Origin: Acidihalobacter yilgarnensis
Lineage (GTDB): Bacteria > Pseudomonadota > Gammaproteobacteria > DSM-5130 > Acidihalobacteraceae
DNA length: 64,000 bases
Assembly: GCF_001753245.1 (NCBI RefSeq)
Contig: NZ_CP017415.1
Location: forward strand, 1,888,501-1,952,500
Direction of reading: 5' to 3'
Shown: positions 3,071 to 41,975 of the stretch, piece by piece
How the letters are laid out: each line of letters starts with the position of its first letter
How positions within the stretch are numbered: position 1 is the stretch's first letter
Position numbers and translations under genes: made by a program
The notes under the pieces: model-generated
Told to the model about the DNA's origin: nothing
Seen by the model: only the letters and a program-made list of their open reading frames with translations
Database searches by the model: none

Positions 3071-4158
3071 GACGCGCTGCTCCTCGCAAGATGCGCTGCT
3101 TTGGTGCCGATCGCTTGCAAGAGTTGACGCCACGACGCGACAAACGCCTCAGCACCTTCACGCTGCAGGCGCTCGGCCAGGACATCAATGTCGATGCCCT
3201 GGCGGTCGAAGTCCGCAAGCACGGCGCCTGCCTCGCCTCCATCCATTGGCAGCACCTGCTTGGCTTGGCCGTGGTCGGCAAAGGCGAGTAATGTTTTTTC
3301 TGGAATGGTATTGATGGTATGCGGTGCGGCCAACGCCTCGACATACAAGGTGTCAGACGCCTGCGGGTCTTTCGTGCCGGTGCTGGCCCACAGCACGCGC
3401 TGTGCGCTGGCGCCAGCCGCAGCCAGCGCCTGCCAACGGGACGACGCGAGTAAGTCGCAATAGGCCTGGTAGGTCTGCATGGCCACAGCAATGCCGAGAC
3501 GATTGCGCGATTGCGGTGAAACGGTGTCTTTCACCGCAACATCCCAACGGCTGATGAAAAGCGATGCGACCGAGCCGACATTCGCATCGAGCCCGGCCTC
3601 GATGCGCCGCTCGATGCCGCGCAAATAGGCCTTGGCCGCAGCCAGGTATTGTTTGCACGAAAACAGCAGCGTGACATTCACGGGAACGCCGGCAAAGATA
3701 GACGCTTCAATCGCCACCAAGCCTTCGGTGGTGCCCGGAATTTTGATGAACAGGTTGGGCCGATTGGCACGCGCATGCAGTTCTGCCGCTTCCTTGAGGG
3801 TTTTCGCGGCGTCATGGGCCAGCAGTGGAGACACCTCCAGCGAGACCCAGCCATCCACCCCGGCGCTGGCGTCGAAGGTGGGGCGGAATAAATCGGCCGC
3901 CTGGCTCAGGTCTTCCAGCGCCAAATCGAAAAACAGGCTTTCGTCCGATTTGTCATTGTCCGACTGACTGCGAATTGCGGCGTCGTAGGCGGTGGAGTGT
4001 CCGATGGCATGCTCGAAAATGGTTGGGTTCGAGGTCAGGCCCGTCACCTGTAAATCGCGTATATAGCCGGCCAGGATGCCGCTGGTGAGTAGCTCCCGCG
4101 TAATATTGTCGAGCCAAATGCTTTGGCCGAGATCGTGCAACTTTTGGGTCGAGTTCAT
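3067..4158 (-). CDS. tal: Transaldolase
   Basis: A 363-aa transaldolase of the longer bacterial class (as in mycobacteria and cyanobacteria) rather than the short TalB or TalC types. It shows [36 protein letters not shown], the Schiff-base block [12 protein letters not shown] with its lysine, and [11 protein letters not shown]. It moves a dihydroxyacetone unit between sedoheptulose 7-phosphate and glyceraldehyde 3-phosphate in the cytoplasm. The start overlaps the HAD gene stop and the stop overlaps the pgi start, each as ATGA. Several E. coli-type class I features are absent, which is normal for this class. Confidence 0.93.
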
Positions 4159-36728: not shown

Positions 36729-36768
36729 ATCCGCCCGCGCCGGCAGACGACGCGCACCTTAAGTGGTT

Positions 36769-36774
36769 TACAAT
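36769..36774 (+). promoter_or_regulatory. Candidate -10 element upstream of acnA
   Basis: TACAAT sits about 100 nt ahead of the acnA ATG in the 145-nt gap after hflD. No good -35 hexamer is found at the right distance, so this is a weak call. Confidence 0.25.
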
Positions 36775-36873
36775 GGACCTCGTCTCCGGGCAGCCTCTCC
36801 AGATCTGTCCCGGTTCGGCATCCGCCACGGGGCGCCGTGCCCTCAATACAAACCCGGACACAAGGACGACTCC

Positions 36874-39606
<2,733 letters not shown>

Positions 39607-40178
39607 ATCCCATCGATGCAGCAGCACCGGGTGGCTACCCGGTGCTGCTGCATCAAACCAGCGAGATCGACAATACCCATCCGATACGCCATCGGGCCAA
39701 ATCGCCGCCTGGAGAGGCGGTAGGTGATATTGCTTCGGCTCGTACACGCGCCCCTTCACCGGGTCTCTCGAAACGACACGAAATAAACAATTCGCGTCGT
39801 GTTCATGAACGGCAAAATCGGAATAAAGGCGTGGCGGCTACCATCTCATGGTAGTCATGCTTCAGGAAATGCTCGTCTCACTGGTGATGCAAGACCTATG
39901 GCCGGAGCGACCCTGAGTCGTATGACGATCACGGAGCGTATCGCATGCTCAGCCCCAAGCATCCGGTGCAGGACGGGCATCGTGTGCAGGTTATCGCTAT
40001 CGATCCTGTGTGCAATATTCAGGTTCCCAGGCCTCGCCTGGCAATACTGCGGCATACCCAAAGGCTCGGACTAAGCCAAACCCCCGCACGCACCCTTGTT
40101 GCGGCTATGGCTGACCGACGCTACGTTCGGAAGCAATAGCGTGGCGCCATGCTGGACTGTCTCGGCATTGACAGTGCG
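39607..40178. other. Gene-free spacer with a series of stem-loops
   Basis: About 570 bases between acnA and the sulfur oxygenase reductase-like gene. No frame looks like a protein: a 70-codon frame at 39,642-39,854 and a 91-codon frame at 39,799-40,074 give low-complexity basic translations without ribosome sites. At least five compact inverted repeats are spread along it: 39,615-39,654; 39,705-39,720; 39,773-39,800; 39,838-39,854; 40,027-40,041. It could hold a structured RNA or be eroded DNA. Confidence 0.4.
39615..39654 (+). terminator. Perfect 18-bp hairpin after acnA
   Basis: Arms of 18 nt (39,615-39,632 and 39,637-39,654) are perfectly complementary around a GGCT loop, 9 nt after the acnA stop. 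Position and stability suggest transcript end protection or termination. No T run follows, so it may stabilise the 3' end or need Rho. Confidence 0.6.
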
Positions 40179-40583
40179 CTATTCTGGCACCCCTTGCCAT
40201 AACATTTCATAGCCAACTTCATAAGTATCATCACAGAATGCAGCAAGTTCTGAAAACTTCTCTTTAAATACTTTATCCGCATGCGATTTTTCGTGCTGGT
40301 CAAACGATTTCCAGTACGTGACGATGACCAGGTCACCCTGTTTCATGCTTTTATCTTCATCGTCTGGTGCAGCACCAACGCTGCCTTCTTTCGATACAAA
40401 GCCAGAGTACTTGAATACCTGGCCGCCGATGAAGCCACCTTTGTCATCACCGTAGGTGTTTTTAACTACATTGCACATCTCACCCAGGACAAGTTCGACG
40501 TCTTCCATTTTTACACCCGGCTTTAGATCTACCACATTAAAAAGCATGACACAGCCAAAGGGTATTTGAATTGGTTCGAACAT
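40179..40583 (-). CDS. Small single-domain protein resembling sulfur oxygenase reductase
   Basis: A 134-aa soluble protein with an alpha+beta barrel-like pattern. By eye it aligns with the first half of archaeal sulfur oxygenase reductase (about 310 aa): VMLFNVVDLK / GEMCNVV...GGFIGGQV / DLVIVTYWKSFDQHEKSHADKVF / FCDDTYEVGYEMLWQG. Cys37 falls where the persulfide Cys31 lies, and His97-x3-His101 matches the iron ligands His86 and His90. An acidic ligand could be the terminal Glu134 or Glu126. No signal peptide. Base composition is clearly lower in GC than neighbours, suggesting transfer. GGTGGGAG precedes its ATG. An antibiotic-biosynthesis-monooxygenase-like protein is the alternative. Function is inferred only. 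Confidence 0.55.
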   Translation of the reverse strand: MFEPIQIPFGCVMLFNVVDLKPGVKMEDVELVLGEMCNVVKNTYGDDKGGFIGGQVFKYSGFVSKEGSVGAAPDDEDKSMKQGDLVIVTYWKSFDQHEKSHADKVFKEKFSELAAFCDDTYEVGYEMLWQGVPE

Positions 40584-41018
40584 AACGAGCTCCCACCTGA
40601 TTAAAGGTGTTCGTTTGATCGGCCAGAGATATGGCTGATCATTACTGCTAACCGACTTTCAATTTATACTAACATATAGAATATTAATAGACACTAATGC
40701 GAAAGGCATCCTGCTCACATGAACTCAATAACCTTCGAGTACGCTCAGCAGGCTCCAGCAGGCGGCGCCAACAAGGGCGCTGTGCAGTTCCAGACCGGGA
40801 TCGTCAGAGGTTCTGTTCGCTTGCAGGCATGCAAGGCGCAAACCTGCCTGCCACCGACAACCCTCTTCATCGCGGTATCGCCGTCGACAGATTGATGCGA
40901 TTCACGCCTGACCCTATAGCAATCCGCTAGGTATCATCAGGCGCGCTTCAGCACATGTGGCCTTCCAGACCGCTTGGGACGCTGCTAACCTGCGCCTCTT
41001 TTGCCGGAGGAGCCCTGA
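40584..41018. other. Intergenic region, no gene recognised
   Basis: About 435 bases between the divergent sulfur oxygenase reductase-like gene and the hydroxyacid dehydrogenase. The first 110 bases are AT-rich (around 40,650-40,700) and probably hold the promoter of the left gene. A 77-codon plus frame (40,697-40,930) gives an arginine/cysteine-rich translation with no family resemblance. GGAGGAG just before 41,019 is the ribosome site of the right gene. Confidence 0.4.
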
Positions 41019-41975
41019 ATGCGCGGCGCATTTCTCGATTTGGATACCCTGGACAACGGCGACCTCGACCGCACCCCGCTGCACGAGGCCGTCGAGGATT
41101 GGACCTTTCACGCGCAGACCGCAGGGAATGAAGTCGCCGCGCACATCGGCGATGCCGAGGTGTTGATCACCAACAAGGTCATGGTCGACAGTGAGGCCTT
41201 GCAAACGGCGCCGCGACTCAAACTGATCTGCGTCGCGGCCACCGGCACCAATAACGTCGACCTCGAGGCCGCCGCCCGGAGGGGCATCGTGGTCTGTAAC
41301 GTGCGCGATTACGGCACCGCCTCAGTGGCCGAACACACTATCGCACTCATGCTCGCGCTGATCAGGCACCTCCCCGAGTACGCCCGCGCGGTCGAGCAGG
41401 GTCAGTGGACGCAGGCACGCAGCTTTTCGCTATACGACTTCTTCCCGGTTGGCGAACTCAATGGGCGTACGCTGGGTATCGTCGGGCATGGCGTGCTCGG
41501 CGGCGCCGTGGCGCGCATCGCCGAATGCATGGGCATGCGCGTGCTGATCTCCGAACGCCGCGGTGCCGAACCCCGCCCTGGCCGCACGGCCTTCGACAGC
41601 GTATTGAATCAGGCCGACATACTCAGCCTGCACTGTCCGTTAACGCCGGAAACCGCACACCTGATCGGCGCCGGCGAACTCGATCGTCTGGGCCCGGAGG
41701 CCATACTGATCAATACCGCACGCGGCGGGCTGGTCGACAGCCACGCACTGGCTACCGCCTTGCGCGAAGGCCGGCTCGGTGGTGCTGGCCTCGATGTGCT
41801 CGATCAGGAGCCTCCCCCGTCCGATCACCCACTCCTGGCCACTGACATCTCCAACCTGATCGTGACCCCGCACGTAGCCTGGGCCAGCCGTAACGCACGC
41901 CAGCGGCTGGTCGACGAGATGGCGCAGAACATCCGCGCCTTCCAGGCAGGCAAGCCACGCAACCGAGTTGCCTGA
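41019..41975 (+). CDS. D-2-hydroxyacid dehydrogenase, glycerate dehydrogenase-like
   Basis: A 318-aa NAD(P)H-dependent dehydrogenase. The N-terminal substrate domain has LKLICVAATGTNNVDL; the cofactor motif is TLGIVGHGVLGGAVA; the catalytic Arg is in LINTARGGLVD, the Glu in LDVLDQEPP, and the His in VTPHVAWAS. The sequence resembles HprA/glycerate dehydrogenases that reduce hydroxypyruvate or glyoxylate. Preceded by GGAGGAG. Substrate not certain. Confidence 0.85.
   Translation: MRGAFLDLDTLDNGDLDRTPLHEAVEDWTFHAQTAGNEVAAHIGDAEVLITNKVMVDSEALQTAPRLKLICVAATGTNNVDLEAAARRGIVVCNVRDYGTASVAEHTIALMLALIRHLPEYARAVEQGQWTQARSFSLYDFFPVGELNGRTLGIVGHGVLGGAVARIAECMGMRVLISERRGAEPRPGRTAFDSVLNQADILSLHCPLTPETAHLIGAGELDRLGPEAILINTARGGLVDSHALATALREGRLGGAGLDVLDQEPPPSDHPLLATDISNLIVTPHVAWASRNARQRLVDEMAQNIRAFQAGKPRNRVA

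Follow-up and report, generated by a model that had tools for sequence, protein, structure and literature searches.

A half-size relative of sulfur oxygenase reductase in sulfur-oxidising Proteobacteria and on phage contigs

Results

A lone, low-GC gene between two conserved flanking genes

Within the window, the whole 64,000-nucleotide stretch of Acidihalobacter yilgarnensis DNA that was analysed, a short minus-strand gene stands by itself, flanked by genes for aconitase and D-2-hydroxyacid dehydrogenase, both on the plus strand:

36763–39606, plus strand: aconitase (Pfam, synteny), the conserved left flank of the site
39607–41018, no strand: spacer holding the half-SOR gene, compared with two same-genus genomes
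40179–40583, minus strand: half-SOR gene, 134 residues plus stop, with a profile relation to sulfur oxygenase reductase (SOR) and 154 unique homologues
41019–41975, plus strand: D-2-hydroxyacid dehydrogenase (Pfam, synteny), the conserved right flank of the site

The reading frame, whose product we call half-SOR, is intact and single-copy in its 3.57-Mb genome; it opens with ATG, and a purine-rich ribosome-binding motif (GGTGGGAG) lies just upstream. An earlier note on this DNA had described a 134-residue product with Cys37, His97-x3-His101 and the segments YWKSFDQHE and EMLWQG, all of which are as it stated. It had also described the gene as lower in GC than its neighbours; indeed, it has a GC content of 43.7%, where the window as a whole has 60.5%, and its GC3 is 45% against 78% in both neighbouring genes. 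Its label of a stem-loop-rich spacer is weak, because positions 40584–41018 fold only mildly better than shuffles (z −2.4, with folding confined to the minus strand), the number of promoter-like and terminator-like sites in 39600–41050 is close to chance expectation, and the spacer region has no Rfam match at the gathering threshold; it holds no tandem array either.

The suggestion of recent transfer made in the same note has fared better. Half-SOR is absent from the four family relatives of this genome (0/4), and the same flanking gene pair in two same-genus genomes, G001 and G002, lies only about 830 and 890 bases apart, compared with about 1,380–1,420 here, with no match to the window's half-SOR in either spacer. 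Given these absences, the shorter spacers and the low GC and GC3, the gene was probably acquired recently; its loss from all the relatives is possible but less likely. The nearest sequence among the best 80 of at least 564 comes from a metagenome bin, is 85% identical and is sister to the window's sequence with support 0.91, and a plasmid collection held no match to the window's half-SOR.

Half-SOR resembles the N-terminal half of SOR

SOR subunits are about 310 residues long, comprise two halves and assemble into a hollow sphere of 24; the enzyme disproportionates sulfur in an O2-dependent reaction with bound iron. The earlier note had likened the product to the first half of this enzyme, and had set a profile search as a test. 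That search gave no clear match to an unrelated family: the SOR family was the top match both in Pfam (PF07682, E 4.7e-4, 19.5 bits, under the cut-off of 25 bits) and in NCBIfam (NF047630, 16.8 bits, under the cut-off of 400), and PF07682 matched 17 of 22 half-SOR members at E≤1. Searched against solved structures, a 22-sequence half-SOR profile ranked SORs first (E 2.1e-5), as did a 49-sequence profile, which had SORs in its top ten rows. The likeness lies in the half that the note had named: hhalign placed half-SOR in the N-terminal part of one full-length SOR with a probability of 71% (P 3.7e-5; 56% with a deeper half-SOR profile), against 0.65% (P 0.088) for the C-terminal part of the same protein. 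This full-length SOR scored 17.6 bits against a model of 154 half-SOR sequences, the best of 2000 shuffles of the SOR scoring 4.4; as judged from these comparisons, the resemblance exceeds chance.

The residues that bear on a shared chemistry are encoded as follows:

40473–40475, minus strand: Cys37 codon, invariant in 154/154, within one residue of SOR Cys31, the persulfide cysteine
40293–40295, minus strand: His97 codon, aligned to SOR iron ligand His86
40281–40283, minus strand: His101 codon, aligned to SOR iron ligand His90
40233–40235, minus strand: Cys117 codon, cysteine in 149/154, near SOR Cys101
40218–40220, minus strand: Glu122 codon, opposite SOR Glu114 in a single alignment and past a gap; placed in the model's last strand

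According to passages of PMC7398979, the SOR iron ligands His86, His90 and Glu114 are all needed for activity, and mutation shows Cys31 to be essential too. In a printed alignment to the Sulfurisphaera SOR (6m35), His86 and His90 stand opposite the two half-SOR histidines and Cys31 falls one place beyond the half-SOR cysteine; an alignment with a full-length SOR has His97, His101, Glu122, Tyr125, Trp91, Thr89 and Asn16 common to both proteins, with Cys37 again one residue off. Two alignments thus put His97-x3-His101 at the presumptive iron-ligand positions, where the earlier note had it. For the third ligand the note had offered Glu126 or Glu134; Glu122 is the better candidate, matched to Glu114 in one alignment only, past a 7-column gap, the HMMER and hhalign alignments ending before it. 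The note's assignment of Cys37 to the persulfide cysteine gains from the residue's invariance and loses from its offset: because the two are aligned one residue apart, equivalence to Cys31 is only probable. Of the two pocket cysteines of SOR, Cys101 has Cys117 near it, and Cys104 has no half-SOR counterpart.

Cys37, Trp91, His97, Glu98, His101, Glu122, Tyr125 and Trp129 do not vary in any of the 154 sequences, a unique and nearly complete set drawn from 184 aligned matches by leaving out duplicates and incomplete rows; the two tryptophans are those that had been singled out as conserved in YWKSFDQHE and EMLWQG. Half-SOR has in common with the N-terminal half of SOR a Gly-Phe motif, T-x-W-K, H-x3-H, a last-strand Glu and Tyr and a nearby Cys, but differs in its length, its displaced cysteine and the missing partner of Cys104. 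Since its scores lie below both family cut-offs and it is half the size, we file it, on its sequence, as a sister family of SOR rather than as an SOR. Among the matches listed in open-access full text, no paper dealt with a half-size or phage SOR; a 'sor' gene is listed for one gammaproteobacterial sulfur-oxidising symbiont in a passage of PMC10952691.

A predicted single-domain alpha+beta barrel protein

Two AlphaFold2 models, built from 22 and 49 sequences (pLDDT 86 and 89, pTM 0.77 and 0.81), predict one ferredoxin-like beta-alpha-beta-beta-alpha-beta domain of the dimeric alpha+beta barrel (ABM) type, with Cys37 in helix 1, His97 and His101 in the helix after strand 3, and Glu122 in strand 4. 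The best fold matches were SnoaB and RslO4, of the ABM family (PF03992), with Z scores of 13.3 and 13.5 over 97 residues at 1.9–2.4 angstrom; sequence identity is only 14–16%, however, and half-SOR profiles prefer SOR. SnoaB is, by its title, a cofactor-independent oxygenase, whereas half-SOR is proposed to bind iron. SOR was not among the 50 matches listed in each of four PDB fold searches, lists that exclude nothing, and a library of viral protein models gave no fold match at E≤0.001. As passages of PMC4835899 describe, barrels in the ABM superfamily arise either when two chains dimerise or when a domain is duplicated and fused, and a half-SOR homodimer is therefore a natural guess. We also considered a metallo-beta-lactamase persulfide dioxygenase and rejected it, the predicted fold being different.

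A large, conserved family that tracks dsrA and soxB

With the window's half-SOR as query, 12 of 56 relatives and 71 of 369 genomes of the class matched at E≤0.001; the weakest class match, in G138, is a full-length SOR, which leaves 70 carriers. A half-SOR profile matched 7 of 229 genomes in a phylum sample, five of them outside the class, and scanning named genomes with a pattern yielded at least 564 stretches encoding relatives, the best 80 at 66–85% identity. On these sequence matches, half-SOR is no rare oddity: the family is large and highly conserved and runs to hundreds of members. It is a small, uncharacterised protein for which we found no name. Intact members other than the window's are about 123–152 residues long in the sequences examined. 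Two subgroups can be told apart, A with at least 58% identity to the window's half-SOR (26 class genomes, the window's included) and B with 35–47% (49 class genomes; 14 sequences of 147–152 residues); five class genomes have both. Thiothrix, Thiofilum, Cocleimonas, Ca. Thiodiazotropha and Ca. Ruthturnera are among the carriers of the best 80 of at least 564 stretches; most of the others are bins, and those titled as other classes or as an archaeon are metagenome bins that may be misassigned. The gene is kept in four genomes of only 1.0–1.1 Mb (G146, G258, G289 and G353) and is absent from the similar-sized G043.

The earlier note had proposed surveying homologues in sulfur oxidisers, and the survey bears out the link: dsrA or soxB is present in 69 of the 70 carriers against 96 of 299 other class genomes (P 2e-27), and dsrA by itself in 61/70 against 57/299 (P 6e-27), P values that are indicative only because the genomes are related by descent. 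Collapsing the co-occurrence by family (about 182 labels) left 38/43 against 21/139. As a control, katG showed no link (25/71 against 100/298, P 0.78, with G138 still counted). All markers were sought in the same 369 genomes, G138 being removed from the dsrA and soxB counts. The dsrA threshold was E<1e-30, since sulfite reductases give weak matches, and yielded 118 genomes (111 over the cut-off); soxB was found in 151 at E≤1e-60 (148 over the cut-off) and katG in 125 at E≤1e-100. The one carrier with neither dsrA nor soxB has an assembly that is 75% complete.

The window's own genome has soxB, with dsrA and soxC giving weak matches only, none over the cut-off, and with no dsrC match, so half-SOR is not tied to DsrC. 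Conversely, the same-genus G001 has soxB and no half-SOR; Sox thus does not require it. Co-occurrence fits sulfur oxidation and sulfur transfer alike and cannot separate the two.

Bacterial neighbourhoods revealed no conserved operon, the commonest neighbour family occurring in 7 of 64 group-A loci (of 80; the gene was missed by the ORF caller in the 16 left out) and in 6 of 26 group-B loci. By reading only, three group-A loci have dsr-like genes about 8–9 kb upstream; these are not relied on, nor is the dsrA gene about 10 kb from half-SOR in the Thiofilum-type G307. Of the 26 group-B loci, six (for example L140:713-3541) have an HtrA-like protease gene in the 8 kb upstream, at a distance of no more than 365 bases in four, and some of these loci have small heat-shock genes as well (identities by reading the sequence).

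Phage contigs carry half-SOR, a probable auxiliary metabolic gene

At least 25 viral contigs in IMG/VR encode half-SOR, at 50–68% identity and with one copy partial; this is a lower bound, as one of seven carriers found from phage dsrC loci lay outside the 25. Tail, baseplate, head, helicase, DNA polymerase or single-strand binding protein genes, that is, phage structural or replication genes, are present on 17 of the 25, and by this carriage half-SOR is a phage auxiliary metabolic gene. Of the eight remaining contigs, the PHROG comparison covered two, L158 and L159, with a single protein from each and no match.

Around half-SOR, the viral contigs carry genes for sulfur relay and iron–sulfur assembly: DsrC in the locus or record of 7/25, about 0.1–0.9 kb upstream, an IscA-like gene in 12/25 and IscU in 2/25. 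In nine contigs (L168, L173–L180), the alpha subunit of a Rieske-type oxygenase adjoins half-SOR, and at least one of these four genes lies nearby in 19/25; within the stretches examined, no contig has both DsrC and an IscA-like gene. Pfam supports the neighbour identities for representatives, including the Rieske copies of L178 and L173; in L174, a phage ORF of 1786 residues next to half-SOR has no Pfam match, yet matches the Rieske-type protein of L178. On L170, an AhpC/TSA-family peroxiredoxin gene (3168-3683, plus strand) lies near dsrC and half-SOR.

In a FastTree phylogeny of the 154 sequences, 21 de-duplicated viral rows formed four groups inside subgroup A (supports 0.64–0.99). Two of these fall in one clade with G289, a genome of 1.1 Mb, which puts the number of phage captures at three or four; the sister of the viral sequence L157 is a pair of betaproteobacterial bins. 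Among the best 80 of 115 phage dsrC relatives, 7 loci had half-SOR within the fetched stretch, and, as a separate observation, 48 of those 80 loci had an IscA/ErpA-like iron–sulfur carrier gene (among L164, L165, L167 and L207–L283). The 7 phage DsrC copies examined each have a single C-terminal Cys; loss of the second cysteine is described for DsrC of SUP05 phages in passages of PMC4164917, and we infer that the hosts of the half-SOR phages are SUP05-like.

A set of 50,697 named phage records gave no match to phage half-SOR, and the best PHROG match to the window's protein was not significant (E 0.19). The known phage sulfur genes dsrA, dsrC/tusE, soxYZ, soxC and soxD, as given in passages of PMC8190135 and PMC4164917, are likewise on uncultivated phages. 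Half-SOR is absent from the gene list in the abstract of PMC8190135, whose main text does not contain 'sulfur oxygenase'.

Discussion

A candidate persulfide oxygenase

We propose, with a probability of roughly 0.5 for the explanation as a whole, that half-SOR is a cytoplasmic homodimeric iron protein that oxidises sulfane sulfur and that doubles as a phage auxiliary metabolic gene. It has a single domain akin to the catalytic N-terminal half of SOR, and this ABM-type domain would most likely homodimerise, two copies taking the place of the two halves of SOR. A single non-haem iron would be coordinated by His97, His101 and Glu122, and Cys37 would carry sulfane sulfur in persulfide form, received from a sulfur carrier or a low-molecular-weight persulfide; the iron would activate O2 and oxidise the Cys37-bound sulfur towards sulfite, a product that could feed sulfur oxidation where a Dsr or truncated Sox pathway is present. 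Phage copies may keep the sulfur energy metabolism of the host running during infection. Half-SOR probably works like SOR on sulfur, and, being common in sulfur oxidisers and phage-borne beside sulfur-relay and iron–sulfur genes, it is probably an overlooked part of sulfur oxidation in these bacteria.

A protein of the same distribution could, however, handle persulfide without any O2 chemistry, in sulfur transfer or sensing: Cys37 would pass its persulfide between TusA- or DsrC-like carriers or on to iron–sulfur assembly, and the metal would be structural or regulatory. DsrC, IscA and IscU, the phage neighbours, are just such carrier and assembly proteins, and the phage sulfur genes published so far are mostly carriers rather than enzymes (passages of PMC8190135). 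Set against this are the invariance of all three positions that match the catalytic iron ligands, each of them needed in SOR (PMC7398979, as above), and the window's genome, which has half-SOR and no DsrC match; we regard a pure transfer role as unlikely, though it is the most serious of the alternatives.

Less probable still is a role in protection, in which half-SOR would be a persulfide or sulfane-sulfur dioxygenase that detoxifies under sulfide and oxygen and contributes nothing to energy metabolism. Its chemistry and distribution would be identical to those of the oxygenase that we favour, and the HtrA/Hsp20-like genes near a few group-B loci and the AhpC-family gene on one phage contig would suit it, but half-SOR spreads little beyond genomes with sulfur-oxidation markers, the single exception among 70 being the incomplete assembly. 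Similarly improbable, and slightly the more so, is a conventional ABM-fold enzyme, a monooxygenase or isomerase with an organic substrate, whose likeness to SOR would go no further than the fold. The fold matches listed are indeed ABM-type or dimeric ferredoxin-like proteins, several with organic substrates and several of unknown function; of 22 half-SOR members, 5 have a match to PF03992 (best E 0.019; none for the window's own protein) and 4 to PF13826 (best E 9.8e-4), and a Rieske oxygenase adjoins half-SOR in one phage group. Sequence searches nevertheless favour SOR over ABM families, and an enzyme of organic substrates sits poorly with dsrA or soxB in all but one of the class-sample carriers.

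A broader form of the persulfide-oxidation proposal is more tentative than its core, and we hold it rather less likely to be right than wrong: half-SOR would be an unrecognised, widespread cytoplasmic persulfide oxygenase of sulfur-oxidising Proteobacteria, a homodimeric, single-domain counterpart or ancestor-type form of SOR, which phages of three or four lineages have captured and which, together with DsrC and iron–sulfur assembly factors, would drive sulfur oxidation in the host.

The strongest new fact is that phages, too, carry the gene for this unnamed protein of sulfur oxidisers, some of them with dsrC alongside. In our judgement, the handling of cytoplasmic sulfane sulfur is still poorly explained, especially where soxB occurs without Dsr, as in the window's genome; half-SOR is a testable candidate for it, conserved, tracking dsrA and soxB, kept in some reduced genomes and phage-borne. 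With it, a phage sulfur gene set made up mostly of carriers, as passages of PMC8190135 present it, would gain a possible oxidising enzyme.

Half-SOR also offers a one-domain model of how SOR arose. The earlier note's minimal or ancestral form may apply: two halves could have fused into SOR, or half-SOR could be what was left after one half was lost, and both are possible. Full-length SOR occurs in the same class, at L144:7590-8747 (plus strand), where it scores 308.6 bits against NF047630 (cut-off 400) and has a hydrophobic, twin-arginine-like N-terminus, which suggests that this SOR is exported.
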